Shown here: one piece after another, positions 4,400 to 48,449 of the stretch
Layout of the letters: every line of letters starts with the position of its first letter
Numbering within the stretch: position 1 is the stretch's first letter
NCBI GenBank assembly: GCA_009829735.1
Contig: CM020620.1
Span: 28,614,951-28,678,950, forward strand
Origin: Pyropia yezoensis
Lineage: Eukaryota; Rhodophyta; Bangiophyceae; Bangiales; Bangiaceae
Reading direction: 5' to 3'
DNA length: 64,000 nt
The notes under the pieces: model-generated
Databases searched by the model: none
Told to the model about the DNA's origin: nothing
Seen by the model: only the letters and a program-made list of their open reading frames with translations
Translations under genes and position numbers: made by a program

Positions 4400-4412
4400 G
4401 AGGAGAGGGGAG
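4400..4412 (+). other. Polypurine tract of element A
   Basis: The 13-base purine run GAGGAGAGGGGAG directly abuts the LTR start (TGTGGCAG). This is the expected plus-strand primer position. The same run precedes the 3' LTR of element B at 28818-28830. Confidence 0.75.
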
Positions 4413-5990: not shown

Positions 5991-6015
5991 CTCTCCGAGG
6001 GAGACGAGGGGGGAA

Positions 6016-13870: not shown

Positions 13871-14515
13871 TGTCGCGTTATGACCACCGCGTGCCCACAG
13901 AGAACCCAATCCACCCCAGAGGGACCACGGGTCACCACTAGAAGGAACGGGCCAGGGAACCCCACGCGCGCTTGCCCACCTCAAGGTCCGAGGTAAAGGT
14001 AAAAGGCTTTTGCCCAAGGGGAAGGAGAAACGCAAAGCAACGTTGTTTTACAAGAGGGACCTCGTTGGGACCCCGGGCCAAGCCCCCAAGAACCCTCCAA
14101 AGAGCTCCTCAGGTGAACCTCCCAGGCGCCCTCCCCAGCGGGCCAAGTGCCAGCATGCACCCGGCCTACACCGGAGCGCACCGGGGCACCCGCGCCAACA
14201 ATAATCTCTCGAAAGAAAAGCACGTGAAAACCCCCCACACACTGATGCAATCCGCCCGAAAAACCCAATGGGAGAAAAAGGGCGAAAAGCACGAAAATAC
14301 GCAAGGAAAATCGAGAAGAGACAAATGCATAGAGAAACAATCAAATCCCAGGCCACCAAGTACAGGGGGGTACAACCGCCTCCCTTGGTCAGTCCACAAC
14401 GGGCGGCCAGCAAGGCCCGCCATCCCGCGACGGCCGACCAAGGATCCGCTGACGCCCCAACGTAGGCCAGCACTCCGCTGTCCCCGGAGGAGGAACGAGG
14501 GCCACAAACGCCACA
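13871..14515 (-). repeat. 3' LTR of element N
   Basis: A 645-bp repeat with TGTCGCG and CGCCACA at its + strand ends, paired with 21266-21910. The open frames inside it are duplicated exactly in the other LTR and carry no recognisable protein features. Confidence 0.93.
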
Positions 14516-14838
14516 TGGTGCCTCCGCCAAGGCCGAGCGTCCCCGCCGGCCGCATACACAGGTCAGGTTCGGGGGCCTCGAGAGACAGTGAGGAGAGGGT
14601 GGCCGTTCACGCCCAACCATGACGTCGACCGGGCGGACCGTTGCGTGTCGCTCGGCCCACGTAGTAGCAGCACCACAAGATGGAGGCCCTGACGTGTTGG
14701 TGGGCCGTCCGCTAGCAACAGGGGGTGCATGCGGGGTACGCTCGGGCCACACTAAGTGTGCCGGAGGGGAGCGAAGGCCACAGGGAGCGAAGGTGAGGGA
14801 CCAGGTATCAGGGATAAGAAGGCCGTCGGTCGGGGAGT

Positions 14839-15492
14839 GTGGGTTTGCCGGTCCTTGTCGTCGGCCAACCACCACCTCCAGGGGGAAGCTCCCCCTTCAC
14901 CTCTCCTGTCCCCTTGTCGGCCATCTCGTCAGCGCCCCTCTTCCCCTGTCACCTTATTGTCGGCTACCTCCCCGTCGGGTGCTTGGCCGACAACGTCCAC
15001 CTTTTTGTTGTGGGCCTCGACGTCGGCATGGAGGGCCCGGTGGCGGCGGAGGGGCAGGAGGCGGTCCCGTGCGAGTCGGCGGTGGGTGCCCTACCGGCCG
15101 ACGAGCACGGAATGGCGGGATGGGCCCAAGCGTGGGAGCGGGAGCGCGGCCGCGGGTGGACTGCCTCGACGTTGGCCCACCGCACCATGTCGGCCATGGA
15201 CGGTGGCAGTCGCGGGAACTCTTTCCGCAAGCAGATGGTGGCCATGAAGGACGCCTACGTCCCGGGGGCCGACGATCGCAGCGAGGCCATCACGGTTGTG
15301 CGTCATGAAGCGGAGCTGGGCTACACCAAGGCGGCCAGGTCGATGTTGGCGACGGTCGTGATGGCCCAGATGCCCCCCTCCCCGTTGGCCGAGTACGTGG
15401 TGATGGCCACCCCCTTCATCGGTCGCCCCGGGTTTCGGCCTCCATGGATGAGGACTCAGCTCCCTTCCCGCTGCGGTACAGTAGGGACGTGA
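14839..15492 (+). CDS. Possible antisense ORF of element N
   Basis: This + strand frame of 218 codons lies opposite to N's pol, between the pol end and the 3' LTR, the position of the antisense ORFs in A, B, D and E. Its best-looking part is the C-terminal half (MSAMDGGSRGNSFRKQM, then SEAITVVRHEAELGYTKAAR and MLATVVMAQM). I cannot align it convincingly with the other antisense proteins, and overlapping frames at 14619-15308 complicate the choice. From 15493 to about 16110 no gene is visible on either strand. Treat it as a likely remnant; function is unknown. Confidence 0.42.
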   Translation: MGLPVLVVGQPPPPGGSSPFTSPVPLSAISSAPLFPCHLIVGYLPVGCLADNVHLFVVGLDVGMEGPVAAEGQEAVPCESAVGALPADEHGMAGWAQAWERERGRGWTASTLAHRTMSAMDGGSRGNSFRKQMVAMKDAYVPGADDRSEAITVVRHEAELGYTKAARSMLATVVMAQMPPSPLAEYVVMATPFIGRPGFRPPWMRTQLPSRCGTVGT

Positions 15493-16109
15493 TGGAGGCC
15501 CGAGAAATGGTTGGGGACCAGGGGGGGGGGATGATGGTCAACCCGCCCGCTAATCCCGCTGCTGCCGTTCCACCTCTCCCGCCGCCAGCCGTCGAGGGAA
15601 GTGATGGGGGGAAGTAGGTGAGCATGATTTGGTGTAAGCACCCGACATGACATGGGTGTTGCAAGCCCATATAAACTCAAATCTTGATCCGACGATCTTG
15701 CAGCGCCTTCAATCCGGTCTTACCGCGCGGGAAGAAGACAAAACTAGGTCGATTCCGACCACGGGGAAGAGGATGGGCGTGAGAACGGCCACGTGTCAGC
15801 TGCCACGTGTCAAGTGGTAGGCTCCCTTTCCGCACCCCGTTTGAAATTTCATCGTCTTGCCTCGTGTCACGGTCAATATCCCCATGGATAACGTGTACAA
15901 CATGGGCGACTCGAACCCCTGACCACCGTGTTGGGCCGCAATGTTGGCTTCGTAGAGGATGACCCGGCCGAGAGTGGAGGAGACACGTCAGGCCAACAAG
16001 GGGTGCTGGTCCAGCGTGAGCGCCTCCACCAGGCCCACGTAGTCATCCACCTCGGGCTCCTCCTCCAGCTCCACGTCTGGATCACAAAGGTCTTGGAGGG
16101 GACCCCACA

Positions 16110-21244: not shown

Positions 21245-21261
21245 CCCCTGCTGCTCCACCA
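21245..21261 (-). other. Primer-binding site of element N
   Basis: On the minus strand TGGTGGAGCAGCAGGGG lies 4 bases inside the 5' LTR end, identical to the sites of B and E. Confidence 0.88.
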
Positions 21262-21265
21262 TTAA

Positions 21266-26603: not shown

Positions 26604-28663
26604 CTAGCGGCGAGACCCATGCCGATAACGTTCCCCACCAGGCGGCGGGGCCGGCGGCTCCAAGTCGGAACCGTCGCGCCCCTCACGGTCGTGCGAGTGG
26701 CGACGACCGCGGCGACCCTTCTGCTTGGTCTTGCGCGCAAGTTGGCGACGCAGACGCCGGACCGACTCCGTCTCTGACGGGGTAGAGGACTCCGAGACGG
26801 AATAAGACAACTCGTCTTCCGACACGGAGGGAGAGCGCCGTGAGCTTCGGCGACGACGGCGAGGAGGCGAGTATGCCCGGCTCGCCCGACGATTGCCACG
26901 CCCAAGTGGGGCTGGCTGGGGCATAATAGCCCCGATGCGAGCCAACTCGGCCGTCATAAACTCCGCCACCGACTCGCAACTCGCGGTCGCCACCGTAGTA
27001 CGGACGCGCTCCTCAAGTTGAGGAGTCTCGGAAACTTGAAGGGTTGCGGTCGACGCGGCCAACCAGGAAATGGTGCGCACCAACGTGGTGATCATCATCT
27101 CTGAGGTCAGAGGCGTGGCCGGTAACACCAACTTGGGATAAACCGTCAGAAGAGTGGCCCCCAAGTTGGGGGACACCGGGGTGGACGACTCAACGGCCAC
27201 GCTTATTGGGATGTCCCGGTGCGGCTGGTAGGGGACAGGAGGAAGCGGAGGGGTACGCCGAGGTGGCGGTGCCCGAGTGTAACTGCGACCCCTACTTGGG
27301 GCCCCCGCAGTGGGTTGAGTCATATAGTCATCGTGAAAGGGCACGGCCATCACGATGGCCTTGTCCGGGGGCGGGGCAATGTGGCGATCCACCCCCGGGG
27401 CATACGGGTAGTCCCCGATGCCCAACCCCTCTCGTAGTACCACACGGCCGTCGTGTAGTTCACGAGCGACCCACACGAACGGGCGAAGTGCGCCATCGTC
27501 CTTGGGCCCGCGGGTGACGCGGCGCAACTTGTGCTCGATGCTCTCCCACTCGATGAACTTGTGGAGACGGAGCATCTCCTCAAGTAGAGTTAGTTGTCCT
27601 GATGAGCATCCCTCAGCAACTAGCTGAGGGGTGAGCTGTTCCAAACATTGGATAAGCTGGAGGGGAAGATGCTCGAGTATCCCCCGCCGCTGGACACAAA
27701 ACACCCAGGTCGACATGACCTCGAGGAGCCACTGGGTTGCCAACATGGCCCAAACCAGGTGATCCGGGCTAGCCGTCAACATGACGGAGCCGAAGTGGTC
27801 GAGCAACCGTGGTAGCATCGCAGGGAACCCGTAGGGGACCTCAACTTGAGGCCACCACTCGGGCTTCTTGTGGTAGTATTGCTCCTTACTAGCAGCGGAC
27901 TGCTGCGGAACTCAATTTGAGCCGAGGTCACCAAGTAGGGACCTCGCCGGAAGTCCTTCTCCATCCGCACATCAAAGTGATGAGTGTGCGGATCGGCCTC
28001 GTGAAGGTACGGGGGGCGAGTTGCCACCGCGTCCCAAGTAAAGGTGGGCAAGTCGCCGGGACCCGGGATAGCTCCCCCGCGGTCCACCATGGCCTTGGCC
28101 CGCTGTACGTCTTCGACATCGTCATCGTCCAGGAAGGCAACCTGGTCCGTCCTGAAGCCGGCAGGGAACCCGACCCTACGGGGATACTTCTCCCGTAGGC
28201 GGTCCCATACCCGACTCATCGCTGAGCCAAGTCGGCCACAGCGAAGAACAGTCAACCCCTCCTCGTATAGAGGCCAAGCGGGGTAAAACCACCGCCCCAA
28301 GGCCTCACGTGGGATGACGCGGCCCGCCTCCGGGGGAGATCCCGCCGCCCACAGAAAGCCGGGTGACGCGGGAGTCCCATCCCCCGGAGCAACCGCGGAG
28401 CCCCCGCCGGAGGTCCCGGCGGGTGCTAAACCGTAGGAGGTGTCCTCCATACGTTTATAAAGAGAGTCAGTCTCCACCTCCGGGGTCACCATGGCACTCC
28501 CCAAGTTAGGGATAGACGCCCTGGCTGCAGCGGCACGAGACCCGCCTCGAGTTGAGGGGGGCTCGGATCGTGGGTAGATGGGTGGCCTCCCCAGCGGGGG
28601 GCGGCCAAGGGAAAGGTGAAGGGGATGTGGTGGTGGTGGCGAAGTGAGAATCGGGGAAAGCAA
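26604..28663 (-). pseudogene. Antisense ORF of element B (one frameshift)
   Basis: Homologous over its whole length to the antisense ORF of A (4241-2127) and in the same place, between pol and the 3' LTR. It reads from 28663 (or an ATG near 28490, MVTPEVETDS) to about 27905. A 1-base deletion there (CTGCGGAACTC against CTGAGGAAACTC in A) shifts the frame, and the rest reads in another frame to 26604. The same blocks are kept (WPLYEEG, WLLEVMSTW, LHKFIEWESIEHKLRR) and the tail is Arg/Ser-rich. Conservation of the protein in two copies argues that the frame was real. Confidence 0.7.
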
Positions 28664-29299: not shown

Positions 29300-29304
29300 C
29301 TTGG

Positions 29305-29617: not shown

Positions 29618-32600
29618 GTCAGGCGCTCTCCCCAAGAGTCTTCCCGAATCTCCGACGGCAGGGTACTTCTACCCGTTCTCCCCTTGCGTACCGGGAGAAA
29701 GGACGGCAGTAACCTGCTCAACTGGTAGCTGCCTGGACACCCTGTTTGTTCAAGGGGACCTTGCTTGTGCTGCGTAAGGATAACCTCAAGAACAATGCCC
29801 GTATGCGTCTGGGAGATAGCCTCCCCCAAGCTTTTACTCCGGTGGTTGACACAGGAGCCGGACCAAGCATCATCACTGAAAACCTGCTACCTCCGGGCTG
29901 GCGTCGCCATGCCTGTAGAGCTCCTACCAAGACCCGGATTGTAGGCGCTTCGGGTCAAACCCTACGATCGCTTGGCCGCCTTCCTGTCGCCATCTACGTC
30001 AACAATGAACCAATGCTTTTTCCCTTCCTAGTAGTCAAGAATCTCTCAGTCCCCCTCATCCTAGGCTGGGACTTCTAGAAGCAGCACGTCAAGAGCAAAC
30101 TACCCGGGTAAGGAAACGTGCAGTTCAATCATGGGTTTTTGTCGCCGGTGCTGGAGCATCTGGACGCGAAGGTTCGTGTAGTCAAGAACAAGAAGGATCG
30201 CATCCCACCCTCTACCTTGACCCTCTTCAAACCGGCGCTCCTACCTCCCCGTTCGGAGACCAAGGTTCAAGTGACCACTCGGACTACGGGTCAATGTCTG
30301 ATCTACGGACGTAAGGAGCTTCTGGCGAAACACTGTTTATACTTGGCCCACGGACATCACAAGAACGTGGAGAGGCACACCCCATTCTCGGTGCTAATCG
30401 TCAACGTGAGCCGGAAGCCGATAACTCTCGCCAAGGGCACTCGAGTTGGAACAGCAGAGCCTTACCGGGGGTCTGCCCGTGCCATGAGAAAGGAGGACCT
30501 CTTGAACCTGCAACAAGAAATGGCATCCAACCTAACGGCCCTAGACGTACCTCCGGAACAAGAGCAGGCTGGCTGCGTTACCCCGAAGCCCGATCAAGCA
30601 CCACCCGGGATGCCGAAAGTCAACCAAGAAAGTGTCCCTCCCGACTTCAAGGAGGCACTGGAGAAGCTTCTCCAGGAGTATCGGCACCTGAGGTCTGGAG
30701 AGCTGGGCAAGACAGACGCCACCCTACACCGGATTCAACTCAAGCCGGATGCCAAGCCAGCGCACCTGCAACCGTACCGGGCTGGACAACATCGACGGGA
30801 TGAGATTGAGAAGCAGGTTAACAAGATGCTCAAGATGGATGTCATCGAGCCGTCTGATGGCGAGTGGGCCTTCCCGGTGGTAGTTGTCCCGAAACCTGGC
30901 AGTCACTTCCGTTTCTGCGTTGACTACAGGCGCCTGAACGAGATGACATTCAAGGATGTATACCCGATACCCCGGATGGACGATTGCATTGACTTCCTTG
31001 GTGATGCCACCCTATTCTCGACGATGGATTGTAATGCTGGTTACTGGCAGATCCCTCTGGCCGACGAGGATAAGGACAAGACCATCTTCACGTGCCATAT
31101 GGGGCTATTCCGGTGCAAGCGTCTTCCTTTTGGTCTCACCAATGCTCCGGCGACCTTCCAGAGAGCCGTTGACATCATCCTGTCGGGGCTAAGTTGGAGA
31201 ACATGTTTGGTCTACTTGGACGACATTATCGTTTTATCTAAGACCCCGGCGGAATACCTGGAGCACCTGCGAGCGGTCCTGGCTCTCCTGTCCAAAGCTG
31301 GAGTCACCCTGAAGGCCGAGTACTTGGACGACGTTATCGTTTTATCTAAGACCCCGGCGGAACACCTGGAGCACCTTCGAGCGGTCCTGGCTCTCCTGTC
31401 CAAAGCTGGAGTTACCCTGAAGGCCGAGAAGTGTCACCTGTTTTAGACTGAAGTGGAGGACCTGGGGCACGTGCTGAGTCCGGGGGCGCTCCGGGTCAAC
31501 GAAAAGAATATTTAGGCTCTCCGGCATGCCCGGCAACCTAAGACCCAGACGGAACTCAAGAGCTTTCTGGACATGTGCAACGTCTACCGCCGGCTCGTAC
31601 GAGACTATGCCCTGATTGCGCGGACATTAACGAAGCTCACCAGCAAGAAACTCCCCGCACAACTCCCGGTGTTCGACGAGAAGCAGACCTCTGCCCTTGA
31701 GGAGCTCAAGAAGCGCCTGAACGAAACTCCGGTACTGGCGTTACCCAAGCGGGAAGGCCAGTTCTTTCTAGAGACTGATGCCTGTGGCATCCAGGTGGGG
31801 TGCTCTCTACACCAGCAGCAATCTTATGGGCGCTTCCTCCCGATAGGCTACTACAGTCGCGTCCTGACTCCAGCCAAGAAGAACTATTCCACCACGAAGT
31901 GCGAATGCTCGGCGGTCGTCTGGGCTTGCTTCCTGTTACGCTCCTATCTTGAAGGACAAGAGTTCCTCATCCCGACAGACTACGTTAGCCTAAGGTGGCC
32001 GCTATGCATGGACAGCAGCCAAGGAAGGGTCGCCCGGTGGCGCCTACGCCTCTCGGAATTCAATTACAAGGTGTACACCAGAGCAGGGAGGGAGCGAGCA
32101 CCACTGCGCCGACACCATGTCCCGGTTGGAGACTCCTGCAGCCGACACCGGCCCTATCCCGGAGGAAATACCTTGTTTCATCCTCCCGCATGTCGGACGT
32201 GGCTCCCATGCTCCCCTGTATGAGACACCTGAAGCTCATCAACCGGTGACCATTCACCGGATGCTGGGGGCACAACTGACGGATCCTCAATGCTTGTTGC
32301 TTCGCCACCAGATGGACCTGAACCGGAACAGTCGCTTCTTCGAGTCTACGGATGGACTCCTGATACGGGTGTCACCCTGCGATGGGGTAACTCAAGTCTA
32401 CGTAGCCCGGAGTCTACGAGCTGACATCCTCCGCCTGGAACACTCGCCTCCCCGGGCCGGACATCCTGGGATTAACCGGATGTGTGCCTCAATGCGGCGG
32501 CACTACTACTGGGAATCCATGGCAAGTGACGTCCACAAGCATCTAGAGGCTTGTGTCTCCTGTGCAAGGAACCAGTCGTCCCAGAGGAAAAAGACTTTTA

Positions 32601-33817
32601 AGCTACGCCTGTTCCATGCGGCGGAACCTTTCGCAAGCTTGTGCATGGACATCCTGGGGCCCCTACCTGAGACATCCAGTGGCAACATATACCTGCTCAT
32701 CATTTGTGACCGGTTCTCCAAATTCATCCGAGCGATCCCGCTGAGGACCATAACGGCCCTGGATGTCACGTCAGCCTTCTGCGAGTACTGATTAGCCGCC
32801 TATGGCCCTCCAGACTCCGTCTCAACCGACAACGGTCCCCTGTTTGCATCCCTGTTCTTCCAAGGAGTCTGTGACCTGATGAGTATCAAGAACTTGTTCA
32901 CTACGACGTATCACACAAAAACAAACATCCAGGTGGAACGATCCTACCGGACCCTGGTGGACATGCTACGGCACTACGTTGAGGAGCATCAAGAAGACTG
33001 GGACGAGCTCCTTGCCGTCCTCACGCTAGCCTACAACTTTCGAGTTCACCGGACAACGGGGGTCGCTCCACTCGTCTTTGTCACCCCAAGGCGGCTGACC
33101 AACTTCTCCCTGGAAAGAGTACCAGAAGGCCCCCAGCCTGCCCTGAAGTCGGGTCCCAAGGCAAAGGATGAGTTCCTGGAAAAACTGAAGCTCCTGATCC
33201 CAAGATTCGTGGAGTCAATCGCGAAGACCCAGGAACGATACAAGCGGGACTATGACAAGGGTGTCCGGGAGAAGAACAAGGAACTGAGTGGTGGCGACTG
33301 GGTTTTTGTGGACAATCATAGCAAGACCCGAGGGAAGCTGGACTCCAAGACGGATGGGCCCTATGAGATCCTGAGTACGGACGGCTGGATATTCCTCCTA
33401 GACGTGGATGGCTCTCCGTACCGGGTGAGCAGCGACCATGTCACCCGAGCTCGACCACTAAGCAAACGGGACCTGACCCGGTGCAAGCGTACCGCAGTAC
33501 TCTGGTTATCCCAAGAAGAAGGCCGAGAATATGTCTACGTCAAGTTCGTTGACCATGCCTGGAGGGACGGGCGCTTGCACCTGCGAGTACGCTGGTTCGG
33601 TTTCAACCCGGCTGATGATACCTGGGAACCCTCCAACTGGTTGCCCACTGCGGACGTCTGCGCCTGCACGCGTCGGAGCGGGATTGAGAACACCCCGGTG
33701 GCCAGAGCCGGCAAGATCCTGGAATCGGACTCGGAGGATGACGAGAAGGAAGGAGCTGATCAAGACCCGCGGGAAGAGCTGAGCTCACCCGCAACAGACG
33801 TGGAACAAGAAGATTGA
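29614..33817 (+). pseudogene. Pol of element D (protease to chromodomain; broken)
   Basis: The -1 frame leads (one TAA near 29706) into protease (VVDTGAGPSIITENLLP, about 29848) with a stop after LGWDF (30076-30078). RT is open from 30118 to 31446 (VVVPKPGSHFRFCVDYRRL, GYWQIPLADEDKDK, VYLDDIIVLSKTP) but contains a 108-bp tandem duplication. Stops follow at 31444 and about 31513. RNase H is at about 31765-32060. A frameshift near 32090 leads to integrase (HSPPRAGH...CVSC, MDILGPLP, a TGA at 32789 where Trp is expected, STDNGPLF). A chromodomain (LRVRWFGFNPADDTWEPS) and an acidic C-terminus end at 33817. Inactive. Confidence 0.87.
31213..31428 (+). repeat. 108-bp tandem duplication spanning the RT YxDD motif
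   Basis: Two head-to-tail 108-bp copies (31213-31320 and 31321-31428) each encode YLDD(I/V)IVLSKTPAE and the following helix to GVTLKAE. They differ at only a few bases. Because 108 is a multiple of 3 the frame is kept, so the RT would carry its catalytic motif twice. Confidence 0.92.
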
Positions 33818-33963: not shown

Positions 33964-36333
33964 CTACTCCCGGCGCGGACGCTGCGCCGCGGGAGCGTCC
34001 TCCAGCACCGCCTCCGCAGCACGACGGGACCCAGAGTAAGGCGGGATGACGTAGTGCGGTGGGCGAGGCGCTGCCAGGTACCCCGCCACCGGAGCAGCAC
34101 CCGTAGGCGCCGGGCGCTCCCGCTCATCCAGATACACCTGACGGCGCCCCTGGAAGCTTGAGAAGAACCCCGACCACTGCTGGGCCAATCCATTCCGGGT
34201 CAAGGTCGCTAGAAGCTCACCAACCACCGGGCTGTCAGACATCTGGCCGCTGTCCGAACAAGCAAACACCCGGTCGACTACGTCGTTCAATACGCTGGCA
34301 TATGTACCCAGCACCAAGGAAGACCCGACGCCTTCGACCTGCACCGGAAGACGACCCAGCTGGTCCTCAATCATGCCGACGTCGTATTGGTCGCACATCG
34401 GGCCACCCTGGGTCAGGTACCAGTCGGGCACCCGAAAGCGGGAAAGGCGCTGAGTCGGCGCCGGGATCTCGAACCGACCCGAGCTTGCCACGCCCGGGCG
34501 GTCAGCAGCGTCGCCGGAAACCGGAGTCCCCAACTCGAGGGTGGGCACTGGGCCACCACTAGGTATAGAAGGCGCCCGAGGAGGAACGGCCGGAGTAGCC
34601 GGCGACCGGATAGCAACGCCAAGAGCCGCCGCAGACAAGCGCGGTGCCGGAGGAGCTTGAAGCACCGGCACAGGTAGAGCTGGGCGCAGACGCGCCGGCG
34701 ACGGTACAGGCGAAGCAACCTGGGCGACAGGCGCAACTGGAGGAAGTGGAGCCGCCGTAGACGCCCGACCGACCGCCGCGGCCCACCCCGACTCTTGTAC
34801 CGGCGGCGCAGTCGGCGAAAGATCAAGGGCGACTTGAGCAGGAAGACTGCCCAACTGCGGCCACGCTGGTAGCGGCGTCGCCAGCTGCACCTTGGCCGGA
34901 GAAGACTGGTAGAGCACCTGCACCCAACCCGAGCCATCCCGACGCGGGCTGTTCTGGTCGGCGATCATGTTCAACAAGCTCCGGTCATGCACCGGGAGTT
35001 GACGCCGGAAGTCGATCATCGCCTGGACAAGCTCCTTGTACTCCTCGTCCTGGCTGCACAGGAAGTCGACGGTCAACTTGTCGACGATCCAGACCATCAG
35101 GAGGTCGGGGAGAAGCCAGAGCCGGTTGGAAACCAAGACCTCGCGGAGCCAGTAGTTGGCAGCCAAGACCGTCATCTCGGAGGTGTACATCATGAACGTG
35201 ATGGAATGGAAGAAGCCCTTGATCGACGCCTGGGACAAGGCGTCCAGAAAGTCCCACGCAAAGGGGACGCTGGACGGAGAAATCCCGACCGGGATCTCGA
35301 CTTCCTGCTGCTGCGGGATGACGTTGGGGTAGTACGCCGCCCGGTTGGCCTTGTCCAGCTTCCAGAATTCTTCATAGTTGCAGCTCACGATGTAGTCACG
35401 CTGGCGCCCACGCCGCTCGCCTTGCTCCCGCGCCGGCGACAACATGGAGTACTTCCGGGTCAAAAAAGAGGGCTCCAGAGCAACCATGCTCGGACGGGGA
35501 TCACACGTCAAGCTCCTCGACCCCTTGAGCGCCTCGTTCCAGACCTTGAGCGCCCGCTGGACGTGCCCTTCCTCCTCCGGCCACCGGAGAACGGGCGCAG
35601 ACACGTGACCCTCGGTCAAGGGAAGATCCAGTACCAGCGCGAAGGGGAGATCCTCCAGACGAGCAACCCAAGAGGAACCCGAAAAGCTTTGGGAGCGGTC
35701 TTGAGCCAGGCGCATCTGCACCGCCGCGTGGAAACGCGTTTTATCCATCTCCGTCAAGACCCCGCGCTGGAGTTCCTTGCGCCAGATGAATAGACAATCT
35801 TGCTGGCACTGGGCCGCGCTGGCGTTGCCGACCACCGTAAAGTAGCGCCGGCCCGCCAAAGGATCCTGCCCAAGAAGCATCTCCGGGAGACCCGCCGGGG
35901 GGGTCCCGACCGGGCGCGACGCAAAAGCCGGGGGAACTCGATCCGCCTCCGCCTTGGCGACCGACGCCGGCACCGACATTCGAGGAACCGGAGGCAGTAG
36001 AAGGGCACGACTGCCCGAGCCCTCCTCCGCAACGCTCGCCGCCAGAGCCGCGGGCCCAGCCAGGATCTCGGGGCTGGAGATGACGTCCAGAATCCGGGGG
36101 AACGGGAAGGTCAAGGTGAAGGAGGGGGGGGGGGCAGGGTTGGAGAAGGTGAACGCGCTCTGGGTGAACACGCTCGACCTCGGCACCGGTATGGACGTGT
36201 TCGAGGCTGTGCATGGTGGCACCTGGTACGGCCCGAGGACGTGCCGGACTAGGGAGGGAGCTATGTAGCATCCCTCGCCCCGACTTGGCGCCGACCCGGG
36301 ATTGCGACCAGAGGGCACCAGGTGCCAGAACAC
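33964..36333 (-). CDS. Antisense ORF of element D (conserved opposite-strand protein)
   Basis: An uninterrupted frame of about 790 codons runs on the strand opposite to pol, starting near the 3' LTR and stopping 146 bp past the pol stop. The first ATG (36333) lies inside the LTR; the first beyond it is 35979 (MSVPASVAKAE). The LTR carries TATAAAA in this orientation (36829-36823), so a start inside the LTR is possible. Shared blocks with A/B are LRWPEEEG...LKVWNEAL (A: WPLYEEG...MGRVWDRL), YYPNVIPQQQEVEIPVG (A: YYPKKPEWWPQVEVPYG), LAANYWLREVL (A: LATQWLLEVM) and RDGSGWVQVLY. A Pro/Ala-rich linker precedes an acidic, aromatic C-terminus. It is intact although the element's gag and pol are dead. 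Function is unknown. Confidence 0.7.
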   Translation of the reverse strand: MFWHLVPSGRNPGSAPSRGEGCYIAPSLVRHVLGPYQVPPCTASNTSIPVPRSSVFTQSAFTFSNPAPPPSFTLTFPFPRILDVISSPEILAGPAALAASVAEEGSGSRALLLPPVPRMSVPASVAKAEADRVPPAFASRPVGTPPAGLPEMLLGQDPLAGRRYFTVVGNASAAQCQQDCLFIWRKELQRGVLTEMDKTRFHAAVQMRLAQDRSQSFSGSSWVARLEDLPFALVLDLPLTEGHVSAPVLRWPEEEGHVQRALKVWNEALKGSRSLTCDPRPSMVALEPSFLTRKYSMLSPAREQGERRGRQRDYIVSCNYEEFWKLDKANRAAYYPNVIPQQQEVEIPVGISPSSVPFAWDFLDALSQASIKGFFHSITFMMYTSEMTVLAANYWLREVLVSNRLWLLPDLLMVWIVDKLTVDFLCSQDEEYKELVQAMIDFRRQLPVHDRSLLNMIADQNSPRRDGSGWVQVLYQSSPAKVQLATPLPAWPQLGSLPAQVALDLSPTAPPVQESGWAAAVGRASTAAPLPPVAPVAQVASPVPSPARLRPALPVPVLQAPPAPRLSAAALGVAIRSPATPAVPPRAPSIPSGGPVPTLELGTPVSGDAADRPGVASSGRFEIPAPTQRLSRFRVPDWYLTQGGPMCDQYDVGMIEDQLGRLPVQVEGVGSSLVLGTYASVLNDVVDRVFACSDSGQMSDSPVVGELLATLTRNGLAQQWSGFFSSFQGRRQVYLDERERPAPTGAAPVAGYLAAPRPPHYVIPPYSGSRRAAEAVLEDAPAAQRPRRE

Positions 36334-36834
36334 GCCCTCTGTGTGGTGATGGTTGGCGGCCGTGGCCCGTGCCCGGCATTGGGATGCGGTGGACTACGCT
36401 ACCCACACGGAAAGAGGGACTTCCGATGGGTTATTGCGTATTTGTGAGGGACTTGATTTGAGAGAATTTCAGTGTGAGATTAGTGAGTGGGAATAGAATT
36501 AGTAGTGATAGTGGCCCCCGACTTGACGAGGTTAGACTCGGGTCGGGGCCACTCGGGGGTATGGGGGGGGCTACCTGGCCAACGTGCCGAGGCTCCCCCA
36601 GATGCACGTTAAGAGGGACAGCGAGGCGCCCTTGGCCCGCGCCCTCAGGAAAAAGACAACTGCTCGTTTACTTTTCTCTTCCCCGTGTGCACTCCCGTGC
36701 GTATCTGTTTGCTCTGCGAGCAGGCACGTGAGGCAACAGGCATACCACTCTCGTAGTTCCCCTTTCTGTGTTACCTGTCCCTTTCCCCCGAGGGATATTG
36801 ACACGTGTCTGAGAGGATCGAGTTTTATACCACA
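36264..36834 (+). repeat. 3' LTR of element D
   Basis: A 571-bp repeat TGTAGCATCC...ATACCACA, preceded by the purine tract AGGGAGGGAG (36251-36260) and followed by the target duplication CTGCC. Confidence 0.9.
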
Positions 36835-37255
36835 CTGCCGAGGGTCCACGGCCGGCGCGCTGCTGGCCCTGGCCGACGGATACGCGGCCGCCCTCGACGG
36901 CCGCCAACTCCTACAAGAACTACTCGACCAGCGCATCCCTGTCGAGACCTATACGGACTCCGCCACGGCGTACGACCTAATCACGTCCTTCAAGGGCCCG
37001 GCGGACCTGACCGGCAAGAGCGACCTGTTCACCCTGCGGCGGGCGCTCCTCGACGGCTCCATTCCGGCCATCCACCACGTCCACGGCGAGCACAACCCGG
37101 CCGACCCGCTCTCCAGGCCGACGTGGTCAAGGCCCAAGCCCAACAACGTGCTCAATGTGGCCCTGCACACGGGCGTGCTCGACACGCTTACGACATCGCA
37201 GACGACCTCCGACGCGTACCGCAACTCCCCAAGGGCCGGCAAACCCAAGGCCTAG
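36835..37255 (+). pseudogene. Ty1/copia RNase H C-terminal part (continues 8301-9500)
   Basis: Directly after the D LTR the sequence reads GSTAGALLALADGYAAALDG, QLLQELLDQRIPVETYTDSA and VHGEHNPADPLSRPTW, ending at a TAG (37253-37255). With SSLLSWASHKPSRVC on the other side of D this is the usual copia RNase H arrangement (W-S-x-K, then S-x-E/A-x-E-Y-x-A, LL-x-EL, D-S/N, HVRxxxNxAD). The split is caused purely by the D insertion. Confidence 0.75.
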
Positions 37256-38537: not shown

Positions 38538-38900
38538 TATAGCACAATAGGAATCCGTCGCACGTCCACTCTCAGGGAACACTCACCAAGGGGGATCGGC
38601 ACCAACGTCACCGGGAGGCCAAGGTTGCTGTCCTTGGAGCGCAAGCCACGGGACCAAGATGGGAGCCCAAATGGGAGGGGTTTGTTGTTCTGCCTTGGCC
38701 GGCGGTGGATTCGCCGCCGGCCCCCACGTTATAAACCCTCGGAGACACTACTAACTACCCTCCACCCCAAGATGCAAGTCCCTCTGGTCATACGTAACTT
38801 GTAGATACCGTGACCAGTACGGACTCTCAAATTGAAAGCCAAGGATTAGAAGTAACCCCCCTAACATTAGGGTCACAATACGGCCAACCATATTGCTACA
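38538..38900 (-). repeat. 3' LTR of element E
   Basis: 363 bp, beginning TATAGCAC (TGTAGCAC in the partner) and ending TTGCTACA. In the + orientation, pointing toward the antisense ORF, it contains TTATAAA at 38729-38735. The other LTR has TCATAAA there. Confidence 0.95.
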
Positions 38901-38912: not shown

Positions 38913-39355
38913 AGATTCGGCCCGTCCTCGGGTCGAGTTGCATTCGGGTTACCGAATGTAAGTGGGTCACGTGACCGTTTACCAGTCGGGTGGGGCTTTG
39001 CGCCCTGTCGCGACAGACACCCCTTTTCGAGGTTGCCTGAGGGGGGTGCCCCCCTTTGTGTGGTACACACACGATCCGTTTTCCGGACCGTTAACTTCCC
39101 GATGCGGGTTTCTGTTCACGACCCCTCTTTCCGAGGGGTGTGCAAGCGGATCCGCCACCAGGTGTCTGGTGGTAGGGGAGCCCCTCTCGTGAGACGATTG
39201 AGTGGGTGGCGGGGTTGCCCGCGTTGCGTGGGGGCGGTTGGGGGTGACCCCCCTGGTTACCCCGTGTGGAGGGGGCGTGGCTCCGGTCCAGGTGCCTGGG
39301 TGGAGCGCCCTCGTAGCCCGGCTGGCGCGGGTCGTCCCGCGCTGCCGTATCGCTC
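38913..39355. other. Leader of the E antisense ORF
   Basis: No gene visible. Short open frames occur but none has coding features. The stretch would be the 5' leader of an antisense transcript and at the same time the 3' untranslated region of the sense transcript. Confidence 0.4.
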
Positions 39356-41689
39356 GTGCTGAACTGTGTGGTTATAAGCGCGGGTGCCCGCGCTTCCCTG
39401 GCTCGTCCGTGCGAGCGTTCTCTGTACCGGGTCGAGCCGGCCTCGGCTTCCGTGTGCAGCGGCACGACGGCTCCGTCGGGTGGCGGGCAACCGCGGGTAG
39501 CTGCTGCGTCTACCCCTACTCCTCCGGCGGCCCGGATGGCTCCTGTCGCCGGTGCCGGCGCGGCTCAACCTCAAGACGGCGTCGCCGGCGTGTCGGGCGG
39601 TTATGGTGGCACCCCGACCGGGACGGCGGGTCAAGACGGCGCGGGTGCCCGCCCGGGTGGTTCATCTGCGGCTGCGGGTGACGGGTCTACCCCTCCTGCC
39701 CCCGAGGTGCCCCCGTCGGGCTCGGGTGGCGGCGTTGCTCTGCCCGCGGTGCCGCGGGCGTCTGGTGGTCAAGGTGGGTCTACACCGATGGCAGTGGACT
39801 CTGGTAGTTACTCCGGGCGGGCGCCCGCCCTTCTTCTTCCTCCTCGGCCCCGTGCCCCTCCGGCACCTGCTCATCTGCCGGTGGGGCATCCCCCGGCGCC
39901 CCCGATTCTTCCTGGTCCTGCCCGGGTTGCCCCGTTGGGTGGCGGCGTCGCCGTGGCGGCGGGTCAACCCGCCATGTCGATGTCCGACTTGGTGGCTCGG
40001 GTCCGCGGCCTGACTGGGCAAGAGTCAATGGAGTCCGATGGGCGGATGCGGGTGGACTTCCACCTGCCGCATCCCCGTGGAGAGTCCTCCCGGCGCGTCA
40101 AGGTGGACCCGAGTTGGGAGCGGGAGTTGGTGCGGCTGGTCAACCAGCCGAACGCGGTGCGGGTGGAACACCATTGGATCCTGAGTCAGCCGGACGACCG
40201 GCATGCGCAGCTCTGGCGCACTCGGGTGGGACGGGGTGAGGTCTACCTCGACCCCGCCTTCGGGGTATGCGACCTGATTGCTCCCGCGTTACCGCGGGAG
40301 GTTGACTACCCGGCTAGTGCACGGGGGATTGCGGCGGCGGCGGAGCCGGTTGCGTTTGGGGAGACGGTGGGCGACACCGGTCGGTATCCCGACTTCGATT
40401 ATTACCCGGGGGTATCCCCGTATCTGTCGTTGACGGCTCCCTACCCGCCTATGGCGGGTTTGAAGTCGGCGTCGAGCTGGCGACGTAACCATGGTGTCAT
40501 GGCGGATGCGTTCCGCACCGATATAACGTGTGCGTTGCAGACCGGCAATGGTCGTGCGCCGGTACACACTCCCGTGCGCCCGCCTCTGTGGCAGGAGGGG
40601 TGGTAACCCGCCCCTGCTTTCCGGTTTGACACCGGCTCCTGTCTCCGATACTTCGGGAGTGTGTTGGCCTCCCGGCCGGTCCACCCGTTGCAGGGTACCT
40701 TCACCCTTGAGGTTACCCTCGGGCAGGCGTCCTCCTTCTTGCTGTCCGTCCGCCGGCAGGGGCGCCTGTTTCATCTTCCGACGGGTGTCCGTCGGCACAT
40801 CGCGCAGTTGGGCGTGGACCTGATAGCTGCCAAGACAGGGTTGGCCCGGGAGTTCGAGGCCCTGCTGGCTGTTCACGATGCCGTGAACTGGGCCGGGGTG
40901 TTGTCCCGTCCCCCGTACCGGGATCCGCAGGCTGGAGCTTCCCCCTTGCCTCGTCACTCGTTGCGTATCCGGCGTACTCAGCCGGGTGAGCCTAGTTGCC
41001 ATGAGTGGGCGTCCACCGAGGCTGTTGCTGACTTGGGTATTCCCATGGTGATCCATGACCCTCTTCAGGTCCTTGCCCCGTGGTTCGGTAACCCGATACC
41101 GGCGGCGGTTGGCCGTCGTCCCCGAGAGTGGGGCTCTGCGGGTGGGGAGCGTGAGGTGTCCCGTCGTCGGGCGGAGCCCCGCCGGGGTTACGGTGGAGCC
41201 CCTTCGGTGGGGTCCTACCGGGCCTCATATCAGGCGCCACCGTCTCCGGTGGTGGCCGTGTCGGCTCCTCTGGCTCCTCTGGCTGCGCCAGTGTCCCCTC
41301 CCGCCCCTGTCATACAAGACGGGAGTCCCTGTCTCTGGTATGAGGGCGTTGACGCCCTTGTTGCCCGCGCAATGCGGGAGGGTCTCTCTGTTAGCTGGGG
41401 GGATATTCCCCCAGGTGCTGCGCTGGTTGGGTCAGCGCGTTGCTTTGGTGGCGTGCTTGACCGCCTTCAGAGAGCTCTGGAGGACGTGGAGGCTGGCCGC
41501 AGCACCCTCGTTCAGCTATGCACCGAGGTAACTCGGGTGATTGACCGTCGTGAGATTGCCGACCGGTGGAGCACGGAGGTATACGCGCTTACGCGTGAGT
41601 GGCCTCCTTCGGGCAGTGGGTCTACCCACTATGGAGGGCTATTGTTTGTGAGGGAGATGGCCCCGGTAACCCGTATGGTGGCCGGGTAG
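39356..41689 (+). CDS. Antisense ORF of element E (one in-frame stop)
   Basis: A + strand frame of 778 codons opposite to gag-pol, open except for one TAA at 40604-40606. The reading frame on both sides of that stop is the same. The N-terminal 200 residues are Gly/Pro/Ala-rich. The middle has WERELVRLV and HAQLWRTRV. After the stop it has LEVTLGQASSFLLSVRRQG, RQGRLFHLP and FEALLAVHDAVNWAGVLSR, which match RQGMLWHLP and LEEMLRLHKFIEWESIEHKL of the A antisense protein in the same order. The C-terminus is Arg/Pro-rich, then helical (CFGGVLDRLQRALEDVEAGR). Alternative starts occur downstream (for example MSMSDLVARVRGL near 39974). The stop may be a mutation or may separate two products. Function is unknown. 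Confidence 0.7.
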
Positions 41690-42084: not shown

Positions 42085-45000
42085 TTACAGTAGGCGTCGT
42101 CGCCTCATGTAAGGCATGAGGAGTTGGCGGGGTATATTTGCCGCCTGTTCCCAGGTGGGTGAGTCGTATCCGACCCTCATAACCTTGACGTACCAGGGTC
42201 CTGGTAGGTCCGGGTCGGTGTGTCCGACCACGCTCTCTACTTGGTATGGAATCCCATCCGGTCCCACCGGGTCCTCTGACCGGTGGGTTGTAAGAGCTTC
42301 ATGTAGCAACCCAGCCGGTACCGGCTGAGGCTGTTCCGGCTTCGGAGCAGGTGTGACATCATTCACACTGATGCGTTGGATCTCCGTATCGGAGTGTAAG
42401 ATGACAGAGTGGTCATCTCTGTGGAGAATTTGGTACGGTCCCTTGACCGGTTGCATGAGCTTGTTCCCCCGGAACTTCTGGTGTCTGATGTAGACCCAGT
42501 CACCTGTCAACAGGGTAGCGTTGCGCACCCGTAGCCGGGTGTCAAAGTTCTTCTTGTATCGAAGTTGTGTTCTGTCAAGGGCACCCTTGAGCTTCGGTAT
42601 CATCCATGATAGCTTGGCCAACCAAGCTAAGTGGATCCGTTCGGCCGGTCGGTCCTTCGGTGTATCATACCGAGTGCACCTGCCGGGTGGCAGCGTCAGG
42701 TTACCGACGCCCATCGGCATGACCCACTCCAGTGGGGCGATGTTTGTGCTCCGATGTGGCCTGGCATTGTATGCCAGGGTGAGTACGGACAGAAGCCTGT
42801 CCCACGTGTTCGTGTGCTCGGCCACGTAGCACTGTAGCATCTTAACGAGGATGCGGTTTAACCGCTCCACTTGCCCGTTGGACTGCGGGTGGTAGTCGGA
42901 TGCCCGACGGGGTTCGATACCGAACATGCCCAGGACCTTAGTGCAGAATGCTGACGTAAGGTTTGCTCCGTTATCGGAGAGGAGTTGCTTCATGACTCCG
43001 TATGCACTGATCCAGTGGTCAACCACTGCGTTCATGATGGTATATGCCGTATCATTCGGGATGGCTGCCGCTCGTGACAGCTTAGTGAATCGGTCAGACA
43101 TGACCAGGATGTACCTGTTCCCTTGTTCCGTTACCGGAAGTGGCCCGAGTATGTCGATAGCGACCTGCTCGTTGGGCCCATCCGGTGGGAACAGTTTCAT
43201 GGCAGACGCCTGCCTATGTAGGCTCATGCGGTTACGTGCACAGGGGTGGCATCCCCTTACGTGGTCGACCACGTCGACGGCCATTGCTGGCCAGTAGAAG
43301 AACCTTCGCATTGCTGCGAACATACGTGAACCCCCCGGGTGTCCGGCTGTGGGGTTCTCGTGTTCTCGTTCCATGACGGCTTGCCGTAAGGACACGGGAA
43401 CCACGACTTGATGTCGTCCATCGGCGGGTGCCCGCCGGTATATGAGTCCGTCTTCATTCTCGGCGAAGATGCCGGCCGTGCCGGCCGGGAGGTTAGCGCG
43501 ATGACGTCTACAGTCGTCGTCATTGGCTTGTGCCTCGCGGAAGTCCGCGAGGGTCAATGGGCACGCAAGGTGTGCCATGTTATGGTCAACCATACCCTGG
43601 GTAGCATTACCCACCATGCAGACCGGTACCACCGGGATGTCCTCGTCCACCGGGCGGGTATCCCCGCTCGGGGTGTCGAGTCGAGACAGCGCGTCTCCGA
43701 GGTGGTGGGTTGACCCAGCCTTATACACGGTGCGGTAGTCGTGCTCGGCCATCTTCAACCTCCATCGGGCTAGCCTCCCATGGCTATCGGAATCCTTGTC
43801 GCCAAGGTTGAGGAGCCATCGTAGGGGTTCGTGGTCGGACCTCACGATGAACCTGGAGCCCTCCAGGTATGGACGGAGCAGTTGCACTGCCCATATAACC
43901 CCGAGGCACTCACGCTCGGTGGCACTATAGTTACGCTCAGCCGGGTTGAGTGTCCGGCTGAAGTACCCTACCGGACGTAGGTCCGGGATAACGTTATCGG
44001 AACCGATCAACGTCTCCCCCTGTAACAGGGTGCATCCCACTTGTGTATCGCACGCATCGACGTCGATGACGAAGGTCCCCCGTCTATGCGGTAACACAAG
44101 GACGGTTGGGGACAGTAGGGCTCGCTTCAGCGACTCGAATGCCTTCTCTTCGCTAGGCGAAGGGGGTTGGAGTACCTTGGGTAAGGTACTGCTCGTAAGA
44201 ACCGTCAACGGTTTAGCTATCCGAGCGAAGTCCTTGACGAACCGTCGGTATACGTTGCACATTCCCAGGAAGCTCTTGAGCTGCGTCTGGGTGTTAGGGA
44301 ACCGGGCATCCCGGAGTGCCCGGGTATTGGCTTCGAGTACCCCTAGTTTACCAGGGGTTATCTGGTGGCCCAGATACTCGACCGTCTGTTGGAAGAAGGC
44401 GCACTTCTTCAGACGCAGGGTTACCCCGGCGTTCCGCAAGAGGGTGAGTACCTCGTCCACATGTTGCACATGGTCATCCATGTTACGCGAGAAGACGATA
44501 ACGTCATCGAGGTACACTAGGCAGTTACGCCACTTCACCCCCGACAGTATAATGTCGATAGCCCGCTGGAATGTAGCGGGGGCGTTGGACAATCCGAAGG
44601 GCATCCTTAGGAACTCGTACACTCCACTGTGACAGACGAACGCCGTCTTGGGGATATCCTCGTCCGCCACTGGGATCTGCCAGTATCCGGCATTGCAATC
44701 GATGGTGGTAAACACCGTAGCTTCCCCCAGGGAGTCGATGCATTCATCCATCCTTGGTAAAGGGTATGAGTCTTTCTTGGTAACCAAGTTGAGGCGTCGA
44801 TAATCGATGCAAAACCGAGGGGTTTGATCCTTCTTCGGTACGATAACGACTGGGGCACCCCACTCCGACATCGAAGGTCGTATCACCTTCGCTTCGCTCA
44901 TCCTCTTCACTTCTCCATCAACGATCTCTCGTTGCATAGGTCCCGCTCGGTGCGGTTGTGACCGGGCGGGGCGTGCGCCTGGTACCAGGTCAATACGATG

Positions 45001-46254
45001 TTGGGTTGCCCCAATGGTACCCAAGGCCCCGCCTGTCCACATGACGTCATGCTTTCTTAGCATCCGTCGTACCCCTTCGGCTACCGAAGGGGGAAGGTGT
45101 TCGAGGTCAGCCTCGGCCAGTGCCTTCAAGGCTTCTTGGTCCTTTGGCGGCATGTCCGCCGGAGCCGCCGATGGGCTAGGCTTCCCGTCATCGGGTTGCT
45201 GTCGCTCGGTGGTCTCGGAGGCCGCCAGTACCTCAAGTGGTTCCACTTGACCTTCCTTGTCAGGGGTAAGGATATCTCCTTCGTAGAGCTCGGCAATCCC
45301 GAGGATAGTTCCCTTCGGGAGGGTGACTGCCTTACGGCGATAGTTCGCCATCACCAGGAGGGACGACCCTCCTGCTGGGAGTTCTATGAGACCGTTGGCC
45401 ATGGTCAACCCATGGCGCTTGTACGTCCGCAGGTTGGACCGGACTCTGCAGATGCCTGCGAGGTCGCAGTTAACCGGGAGGACTGTCTCCGACAACGGCT
45501 CAAAGCGAGTTCGCTTGGCCAAACGAAGTGTCTTCGGCTCGACGCTTGCGTACACCTCAGCCACGTTAACGTGGCTCCCTTGTAGCGTCAGGTCCCTGAC
45601 GATAGCCGTATGTCCTCGCTTGGTCCCGTCGGCCTCTTGCAGCTCGACGGTCCTCCGGCCCGGCCGGATTGCATCAACGTGAACGTTGATGAAGGTGCAT
45701 CTCAATATGCAGGGCACCGATAGGGTCTCACACGCCAGGAACTCGACTTCCGTGGTGAGTTCCCCGATGGTAACCTGCAGCGACATTGCTGCGGTCGTAC
45801 GAATGAGGCGACCATTCGCGTCCTTGATGGTGGGCCCCCGAGTCACTCTGACTCGCGGAAGCCACTTGTCCGGGAGGGTGTCCTTCCGGATAAGGTTGGG
45901 TCCAGCCCCTGTATCCAGTACAGGGTAGTACGATCGTGTCGACTGGGGGTCAACCCCCAGTGTAGCTGATACCTTGAAGTTCTCCAAGGTGAACAGTACG
46001 TGGCCTACACCGATATCCGGTGTAGCTCGGGCATCCTGAACAGGGCGCTTGTCTGGTTCCATGTGACGGGGCTTCCCGTCCTCTCCTCCCGTTATCGGTG
46101 GGTTCTCGTCATTCCCCTGACTCCGTGTCGTCGGGGCCGGAAGGTGTACCCGGGGGTTGATGCGGCGTCGGCTCAACCGCGCTCTCCGTGGGGCTTTCCC
46201 CGCGGTACTCCGGGGTGGCTTGCTTGGGTTACCCCAGCGCCCCCCGGTCATCAT
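42085..46254 (-). CDS. Pol polyprotein of element E (intact, chromodomain)
   Basis: A single unbroken frame of 1,389 codons from the first ATG; the frame stays open upstream into gag, consistent with synthesis by -1 frameshifting. A basic N-terminus precedes protease with VLDTGAG at residues 112-118. RT follows (APVVIVPKKDQTPRFCIDYR, GYWQIPVADEDIPKTAF, VYLDDVIVFSRN), then RNase H (IDVDACDTQVGCTLLQGE, ERNYSATERECLGVIWAVQ). Integrase has HENPTAGH...CHPC, AIDILGPLPV, LLSDNGANL and GQVERLNRI. The C-terminal chromodomain-like tail (WYVKVMRVGYDSPTWEQAA) ends at 42085. All catalytic motifs are present, so this is the best candidate for an active polyprotein in the window. Confidence 0.95.
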   Translation of the reverse strand: MMTGGRWGNPSKPPRSTAGKAPRRARLSRRRINPRVHLPAPTTRSQGNDENPPITGGEDGKPRHMEPDKRPVQDARATPDIGVGHVLFTLENFKVSATLGVDPQSTRSYYPVLDTGAGPNLIRKDTLPDKWLPRVRVTRGPTIKDANGRLIRTTAAMSLQVTIGELTTEVEFLACETLSVPCILRCTFINVHVDAIRPGRRTVELQEADGTKRGHTAIVRDLTLQGSHVNVAEVYASVEPKTLRLAKRTRFEPLSETVLPVNCDLAGICRVRSNLRTYKRHGLTMANGLIELPAGGSSLLVMANYRRKAVTLPKGTILGIAELYEGDILTPDKEGQVEPLEVLAASETTERQQPDDGKPSPSAAPADMPPKDQEALKALAEADLEHLPPSVAEGVRRMLRKHDVMWTGGALGTIGATQHRIDLVPGARPARSQPHRAGPMQREIVDGEVKRMSEAKVIRPSMSEWGAPVVIVPKKDQTPRFCIDYRRLNLVTKKDSYPLPRMDECIDSLGEATVFTTIDCNAGYWQIPVADEDIPKTAFVCHSGVYEFLRMPFGLSNAPATFQRAIDIILSGVKWRNCLVYLDDVIVFSRNMDDHVQHVDEVLTLLRNAGVTLRLKKCAFFQQTVEYLGHQITPGKLGVLEANTRALRDARFPNTQTQLKSFLGMCNVYRRFVKDFARIAKPLTVLTSSTLPKVLQPPSPSEEKAFESLKRALLSPTVLVLPHRRGTFVIDVDACDTQVGCTLLQGETLIGSDNVIPDLRPVGYFSRTLNPAERNYSATERECLGVIWAVQLLRPYLEGSRFIVRSDHEPLRWLLNLGDKDSDSHGRLARWRLKMAEHDYRTVYKAGSTHHLGDALSRLDTPSGDTRPVDEDIPVVPVCMVGNATQGMVDHNMAHLACPLTLADFREAQANDDDCRRHRANLPAGTAGIFAENEDGLIYRRAPADGRHQVVVPVSLRQAVMEREHENPTAGHPGGSRMFAAMRRFFYWPAMAVDVVDHVRGCHPCARNRMSLHRQASAMKLFPPDGPNEQVAIDILGPLPVTEQGNRYILVMSDRFTKLSRAAAIPNDTAYTIMNAVVDHWISAYGVMKQLLSDNGANLTSAFCTKVLGMFGIEPRRASDYHPQSNGQVERLNRILVKMLQCYVAEHTNTWDRLLSVLTLAYNARPHRSTNIAPLEWVMPMGVGNLTLPPGRCTRYDTPKDRPAERIHLAWLAKLSWMIPKLKGALDRTQLRYKKNFDTRLRVRNATLLTGDWVYIRHQKFRGNKLMQPVKGPYQILHRDDHSVILHSDTEIQRISVNDVTPAPKPEQPQPVPAGLLHEALTTHRSEDPVGPDGIPYQVESVVGHTDPDLPGPWYVKVMRVGYDSPTWEQAANIPRQLLMPYMRRRRLL

Positions 46255-46259: not shown

Positions 46260-48449
46260 TTACTCGTTTCCCGCCCTTGGTAGGGTGCTGTCCGCCGGGA
46301 CCTCCGGCTGAGGAGGTGCCTCCTCGACGGCCAGTACTCCACCTGGAGCTGGCTGCCTACCCGGTGCGGGTCCGGGTGCTCTGGCGGGATACCCCCCGGT
46401 GGATGCCTTGCGTTGTGCCGCTGCCCGCCGAGACTCCTCGGGGATGAGTGGGCAGGAAGACACCCAGTGTTGGGGATCCCCACACAACATACATCCGGAC
46501 GTGCCGGTCCCCCCTTGAGTTCGCATCGGGGTAGCCCCGTAGCTGCGGTTGCCTCCCTCAGGCGCCCGAGTGCCTGCTCCCTGGTAGGCCTTGGGTCCTT
46601 CGGTCAACCGGAACATGGACTCCCCCAACTGGTTGGGTCGGCCCGCAATCTGCGGGGGTGCCTCCGTGCGCACCGCCCATGTTGGCAAGGGTTGGTGAGG
46701 GTTACTTGTCACCGGGGAGTACCCCGTAGTCCGTACGTACGGGACGCGACGTCCCGTGCCCTCGCTGACCTGGAACTGGGTCCCCGCCGGAGCAATGTAC
46801 GCTGCCGTACCGTGCTCATCAATCACCGGCGTCGCCGGTAGCAACAGGTGGCCTTGTTGGTCAACTAGAGGTTCATCCTCGCCCGTAGGGGTATGTTCGG
46901 TCGCCACCAGTACTGGTGCGGCCTTACGTTCCACCTTCTCTTGCCTCGGTACCGGGGTAAGACTGGGCTTGCCTCCCTCACCCTTGGGCTTCGGGGCCAA
47001 GGCACATTCCGGGTGTAGAACCCGGTAGGCGTCCCCTAGGGACTTGCACATATGCATCAGTCTACTGAAGTTCGTCCGGGCCGTATTGGCTCCCCGTGCG
47101 GATATCCGCACGTAGTTGGGTACTCCTGCGAACAGGATGGCCCGTAGTTCCCCTTCACCGAGGAGCTTCCCCAGCTCGTAGTCGAGCTCTTGGATCCGGC
47201 GTCCAAACATCTCTTCATCCTCCCAGCTCTGGGCGGTGGCAGTGCGCAGGGCCCGGTAGTGGTCCTCGCACTTGTCCTCACTGAGGTAACTGCTCAGCAG
47301 CTCCTTGAGAATCCCACGGTAATCCATGGGGGTGGCCGCGACCCTCATTCCCGGCATCGGGGATGCCTGGCGAAGAATGCCTCGCACCCGTTCATCAACA
47401 AAGAACGGGAGGATCTCCAGGGCCAGCCCCTCGTTGACGAGCGCCTTGTCCGCGGCTGCCTTGAAGCTAGTCAAGAATCCGATGACTGCCAACGGGCGTC
47501 CGTTGGGGCCCCCGAACATGGGGACTCCCTTCATAAGGGTCTGCATAGAGCGAATCGCTCGGTGCGACGTATTACGCATCGATTCCGATACGGTGGTAGA
47601 TCGGTCCTCCAAACGATAACGTTCCGGAGTAAGAACCGACCGGAAGACCTCGTTAACGATCTCCGTGTCAGCGTCCTGGGTATCCAGTCGCTTAGCCAGT
47701 TGGTGAGCAAACTCATCGGACTCCATCCGCTTCAGTAGGCTCGCCGTTACCTGCGCGGTCATAGCTTCCACCACTGAAGATGGTACTTCAGGCGTCGGCA
47801 CCTCGGGAACCCGAGTTGCCTGGCCTCCTTCGTCGTGGGGATACTGTGAGAGGGTACCCCCTCCCCCAATAACCGACTCTCCACCGGCGTAAGTATCCGC
47901 CGGGTCGTGTCCGCGGAGTCCGCATCAGGTGCTCCGAGCGTATCGCTCCGTGTGACTCCGTTCCAACTCTGCCGACGAGTCGGATCCATACCCCATTGTG
48001 TCCGGGGGCTGTCCGGGAGTTGCTGCGCCGGGGTCGACCCCGGTGGACTCCGAAAGTAGTCCGGCCGGTTCAAACCGTACCGGTGTGGGAGGAACACGAC
48101 GGGGTCCCGTCGTGTGGCGTGTTGACATCAACACGGCCATTGCGTCCTCCGTCCGCTCTTGACGAGCGTCGAGTCCGGAAAACCGGGCCTCGATGCGGGC
48201 CAATGATGCCATCAGGGAATCCCCTGGTGAAGGAGGCGGCGGAGTGAGGTCGGTCGATGACAGTTGAGGCGGGCCCCCGCCTCCGGCCGTCCGAGCCGTG
48301 CCAAACGTCGATCCGGCACCGGAAAGCATTGGCGTCTCAATGTTGTCGATTGGGTTCCCGATCCCGGTTCCCGTAGTCACCTCCGGAGTCGGCGTCGACG
48401 CCGATCCGTCATCTTGAACGTTCCCCGTCTCTTGGGTAGACATAGTCAC
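46260..48449 (-). CDS. Gag of element E (one in-frame TGA)
   Basis: The first ATG is 48449 (MTMSTQETGNVQDD), a Pro/Ser/Gly-rich N-terminus. An in-frame TGA lies at 47925-47927, and the same frame then continues through the capsid region (GFLTSFKAAADKALVNEGLALE, MFGRRIQELDYELGKLLGEG, each read in parts) to a zinc knuckle CMLCGDPQHWVSSC (about 46490-46450). It ends AGNE at the TAA 46262-46260. An alternative frame across 47930-47800 also looks coding, so the break may be a pair of compensating frameshifts. If the TGA is real, an ATG at 47801 (MPTPEVPSSVVEAM) could start a shorter Gag that keeps the capsid. Confidence 0.85.
46266..46272 (-). promoter_or_regulatory. -1 programmed frameshift heptamer, element E gag/pol
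   Basis: On the minus strand GGGAAAC is in gag phase as G GGA AAC, followed by GAG and the TAA stop. Slipping back one base gives GGG AAA CGA GTA..., exactly the open pol frame. G-GGA-AAC fits the X XXY YYZ rule of known retroviral -1 sites. GC-rich sequence able to pair (CCGGGG with CCCCGG) begins about 18 nt downstream. Confidence 0.8.

Follow-up and report, generated by a model that had tools for sequence, protein, structure and literature searches.

The window examined here, a 64,000-nucleotide stretch of contig CM020620.1 from the red alga Pyropia yezoensis (genome of 107.5 Mb in 11 contigs), carries several Ty3-type long terminal repeat (LTR) retrotransposons, lettered here as families A to E, together with a remnant, Z. 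A preliminary description made from the letters alone had proposed that A, B, D, E, and Z share a protein family encoded antisense to pol, in long open reading frames (ORFs) between the pol stop and the element end (Table 1). This placement was seen in A, D, and E, where the antisense gene lies on the strand opposite pol, tail-to-tail with it and just inside the 3' LTR. The pol frame ends at 2015 in A and at 33817 in D, with LTRs from 4412 and 36265, respectively; in E, the pol stop is at 42085, the antisense gene reaches to about 41632, and the LTR ends at 38900. The stop-to-stop gap between pol and the antisense gene is about 110 bp in A, 150 bp in D, and 450 bp in E, and some 290 to 380 bp separate the likely ATG from the LTR boundary in each of these elements (in E, as inferred from open relatives). 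The orientation opposite to gag-pol is shared by B and by L047, a sibling copy of C. Long ORFs were found in A and D, whereas the E copy in the window has an in-frame stop and B is frameshifted. The upstream start of the D frame overlaps the LTR, and its likely ATG is at 35979. The likely ATG of A, at 4070, is also where a database relative of the A protein (P0010, 96%) begins. The E gene is open at 39317-40603 and again, in the same frame, at 40607-41686, and its start at 39278 is inferred only from an open relative (L012), the first 45 codons of which are unmatched in the window.

Homology between families was assessed with a profile built from A and Z only and run blind over six frames of the window. 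The profile recovered the D frame (E value 1.3e-8) and also the E type, both from a full-length copy (8e-8) and from the broken copy of the window (9.7e-5), while the best E value among 10,125 shuffled sequences was 0.03. Identity between families is about 19-29%. As judged by sequence similarity, the antisense proteins of A/B, D, E, and Z, and of C sibling L047, are one homologous family, and the gene is almost certainly a conserved, coding antisense accessory gene of Ty3-type LTR retrotransposons. The longest open frame of each region was also compared with 300 shuffles. Those of D (766 codons) and A (724) far exceeded the shuffle maxima (406 and 445), whereas the broken E window copy was within the chance range (429 versus 461). 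A GC content of 63-65% lengthens frames, and the E window copy would suit a chance open frame in GC-rich DNA. This explanation has practically negligible probability and is ruled out by the A and D shuffles, the homology, and the selection described below.

Table 1. Features of the window, with positions counted from its first letter.
Feature	Position	Strand	Remarks
D antisense frame	33964..36333	-	789 codons as found; likely coding 33964-35979, 671 aa, ATG at codon 119
A antisense frame	2127..4241	-	704 codons; coding part probably begins at ATG 4070
B antisense gene	26604..28663	-	frameshift splits it into 26604-27818 and 27776-28663
E antisense gene	39278..41686	+ (element on minus strand)	broken copy in window
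Z antisense gene remnant	4881..6041	-	cut off at A LTR; insert of ~200 bp
C element 3' part	13871..16000	+ (antisense strand given)	stretch holding antisense domain in sibling L047 missing
E pol	42085..46254	-	open; reverse transcriptase, RNase H, integrase; weak chromodomain
E gag-like frame	46260..47801	-	one CCHC knuckle
E 3' LTR	38540..38900	-	mate 48671-49031, 99.2% identical
D 3' LTR	36265..36867	+	94.7% like 9501-10103
A 3' LTR	4412..4880	+	resembles 11877-12346 and 28830-29305
D pol remnant	29644..33445	+	two matched pieces with 5 and 1 stops; 39% identity to E pol

The E-type gene is frequently open elsewhere in the genome. Of 30 fetched E-type copies, the window copy among them, half (15) show neither a stop nor a gap of their own when aligned across the full 789 codons. 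Two genome listings, which overlap and are not summed, give counts of places irrespective of the full-length status of the elements. With the window copy as query, a frame of at least 789 aa was present at 83 of 118 places among the matches listed; a stop lay inside the matched stretch at 115 of the 118, probably because the query, in which the usual stop is lost, extends beyond the point where other copies end. With a Pyropia vietnamensis protein as query, a frame of at least 789 aa was present at 64 of 67 places, and no stop fell inside the match at 45 of 67, again among matches listed. Additional copies were found for the A type (45 matches to a DNA pattern of its motif versus one for the reversed pattern) and for the D region (40 scored places, window included). 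At one locus (G000:C2:9880067-9892399), four E-type antisense matches on one strand at ~3.5 kb spacing form a tandem array of the gene region. The insert in Z (about 5421-5621) is itself a repeat, with eight further places at 89-90% identity among the matches listed. Presence did not extend to all members, as some C siblings lack the gene. The C element of the window (13871-21910) has LTRs that are 99.7% identical, indicating a recent insertion, yet it lacks the antisense domain, and its pol pieces carry stops and frame changes. The same region is matched from end to end by siblings L045 and L046, and C may be a non-autonomous deletion subfamily.

The preliminary description had also proposed a dN/dS comparison across copies. 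Run as the ratio of nonsynonymous to synonymous changes per site (pN/pS), this gave values for changes shared between copies of 0.23 (E) and 0.16 (D), not near 1, versus 0.09 for the 3' end of E pol. Shared changes in the E core gave 0.134 versus 0.091 for pol. The ends of the E gene are fast-changing and its centre is conserved, with a core pN/pS of 0.146 against 0.142 for the pol 3' end, i.e., near-pol constraint. Private changes were much less constrained than shared ones, which indicates that selection acted on the multiplying element. The antisense gene evolved under purifying selection in A/B, D, E, and Z. These values also bear on a reading in which the antisense RNA is the functional part, pairing with genomic RNA and limiting copy number while the frame is incidental. 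The tail-to-tail layout would yield overlapping 3' ends, and the available text of PMC7264820 indicates that antisense RNAs of LTR elements may act in this way. However, codon-level constraint in four families and 19-29% protein identity exceed what RNA pairing alone would leave, and we regard this reading as very improbable, although both functions could hold together.

Searches of a database of 5.8 billion proteins, each of which scored about 8,000 candidates, yielded nine relatives. Five are hypothetical proteins of P. vietnamensis, all of the E type (33-59% identity for the four with a listed figure), and the other four (two E-type, one A-type, and one D-type) are 83-97% identical to proteins of this genome. 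No viral relative was found in IMG/VR, which would be compatible with a host gene captured once, in antisense, by an ancestral element and kept as a passenger. None of the nine relatives is established as a host gene (nor as a non-host gene), however, and selection across copies implies more than a mere passenger. We consider such a capture improbable.

The conserved centre of the protein is predicted, at low confidence, to be mostly helical and is flanked by long, low-complexity, proline-rich ends. Net charge over the N-terminal 60 residues is -15 and -17 in E-type proteins, -10 in P. vietnamensis, -6 in A, and +1 in D, and the A protein has arginine-rich clusters near its C-terminus. No significant match was found by sequence comparison with the PDB. 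Among the roles raised by the preliminary description (a regulator, a packaging factor, or a counter-silencing factor), we favor the first and keep the others as rivals. A role in structure or packaging, in which the product of the antisense message joins gag in the particle or pre-integration complex, would be in line with the near-pol constraint of the conserved centre and with the arginine-rich tail of the A protein. Conversely, BLASTP of the E gag against four antisense proteins gave no match at an E value of 1, Pfam detected no gag domain in the antisense proteins, and a gag-like frame bearing a CCHC knuckle exists separately, making this role unlikely. A factor blocking a host RNA or chromatin silencing step would fit the fast-changing ends around a conserved centre, and presence in several families would suit a long contest with the host. 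Even so, we consider it quite unlikely: there was no signal of positive selection, as pooled pN/pS was <1 in every region tested, and private-change values exceeded 1 only in D copies L055 (1.19) and L056 (1.06), which fits decay. Moreover, no named suppressor turned up in the Pfam scans, although no direct search for one was made.

Overall, the best explanation (probability of roughly 0.7) is an antisense accessory gene of this group of Ty3-type LTR elements, the product of which may act in trans in the nucleus. Its promoter would be situated within the 3' LTR or close to it; expression would then be limited to integrated copies and separate from the genomic RNA. The protein would then act in trans in the nucleus, where it might regulate a step such as element transcription or the use of element RNA. 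By analogy with gene23 of the plant element Grande, whose product is nuclear and which is served by an antisense promoter of its own, we tentatively favor a nuclear accessory protein acting in trans, with a regulatory role, at somewhat less than even odds.

Several observations weigh against this explanation. The proposal of a nuclear role rests on composition and analogy; the D N-terminus is not acidic, and a scan of five proteins for basic clusters was positive only for A (clusters) and P0018 (one run). Pfam scans of seven antisense proteins gave no domain match over the cut-off, with DUF6214 matches below it only. The two structure models, on which the fold comparison rests, are poor, with mean predicted local distance difference test scores (pLDDT) of 32 and 48 (47.7 for the shared central domain, the structure of which the preliminary description had suggested predicting). 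Taken in full, the E gene is under looser constraint than pol (pN/pS of 0.37 versus 0.14), and one sense-strand frame also has a pN/pS <1 (0.44; core, 0.38), although this frame contains 18-24 stops in the 14 copies checked. Broken copies are also common: the antisense gene has stops at all eight fetched A-type pattern loci, only 2/7 fetched Z loci keep an uninterrupted frame between the likely ATG and the gene end, and six of the eight fetched D copies carry one to six stops each in codons 119-789, leaving only the window copy and L056 stop-free. The D frame had been described as intact beside a dead pol. It indeed has no stops in codons 119-789, and D pol has stops; because most D copies are broken, however, its intactness needs no special cause. 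Constraint on the private changes of the window copy is no higher than in the sibling set, and its open frame is best read as a lucky remnant of a once-selected gene.

The remaining features of the window provide context for these elements. E pol has the usual Ty3-type domain order by Pfam (RVT_1, RT_RNaseH, Integrase_H2C2, rve), with a weak chromodomain match (PF00385, E value 0.029, 14.7 bits versus a cut-off of 25.1). Ten other window stretches match E pol, nine at 36-50% identity and one at 24%. The E gag-like frame had no Pfam match at an E value of 0.01. Beside the Ty3-type pieces, a frame at 8355-9683 reads like what we take to be a Ty1/copia-type reverse transcriptase, judging by a motif, and is perhaps a nested fragment. 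Very long frames of 1102 and 1118 aa occupy both strands at 50110-54627, where repeats lie internally at 50321-50578. A plus-strand frame at 10307-11203 encodes a run of arginines and, after it, a stretch rich in serine, and is slightly like the C-terminus of the A antisense protein, which is encoded on the other strand.

The observation of the preliminary description was thus confirmed, on stronger evidence than the letters alone could give, and its interpretation was supported in part. Its statement that antisense ORFs are known in a few plant Ty3 elements holds for Grande, RIRE2, and Retand, to which the fungal Boty can be added. An antisense gene in this slot is therefore of a known kind. 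In the available parts of PMC7264820 and PMC11963269, plant antisense genes that lie downstream of pol and before the 3' LTR are described as conserved, their source and role being an open puzzle. In maize Grande (gene23) and rice RIRE2, the gene has the same place and orientation and is conserved in most copies (PMC7264820, available text); these plant elements, and Boty of Botrytis and Sclerotinia, with an antisense gene in the same slot, are likened here by description, not by sequence. Retand of flowering plants likewise has an antisense frame in this slot, with one domain (TRP28, or Transposase_28, PF04195) common to 97% of lineage clusters and a proposed regulatory role (PMC11963269, available text). 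Retand, however, belongs to a non-chromovirus plant lineage, and hmmscan found no PF04195 match in the seven red-algal antisense proteins scanned (P0001 and P0002 at an E value of 1; P0009, P0010, P0013, P0018, and the Z protein at 10), in a search where HMMER filters drop most weak matches. The retroviral HBZ and APH-2 of human T-cell leukemia viruses are also antisense genes, with a 3' LTR antisense promoter and nuclear proteins, as far as the available portions of the same two sources describe them (PMC11963269, PMC7264820); the likeness is one of working only, no sequence link having been sought. As in antisense additional ORFs of the aORF-3R class, the red-algal gene occupies the pol/3' LTR slot on the strand opposite gag-pol, while presence in most copies together with near-pol conservation is based on the E type.

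Both the protein family and the fact that several red-algal element families share it, with the E type also occurring in a second species, appear to be new, and the literature searched contained no paper that deals with antisense genes of LTR elements in red algae. With many open E-type copies among the matches listed, in a presumably cultivated alga, expression, localization, and partners of the protein are directly testable. We consider rather unlikely a bolder proposal, in which the protein represents a new fold family ancestral to Bangiales Ty3-type elements, serves, from integrated copies only, as an anti-silencing factor or a master regulator working in trans, and arose independently of the plant antisense genes. 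A second group with such genes, far from flowering plants and without the TRP28 domain, suggests that the slot has been used repeatedly and under selection; if the origins were independent, Ty3 elements would have arrived more than once at an antisense accessory gene in exactly this slot.
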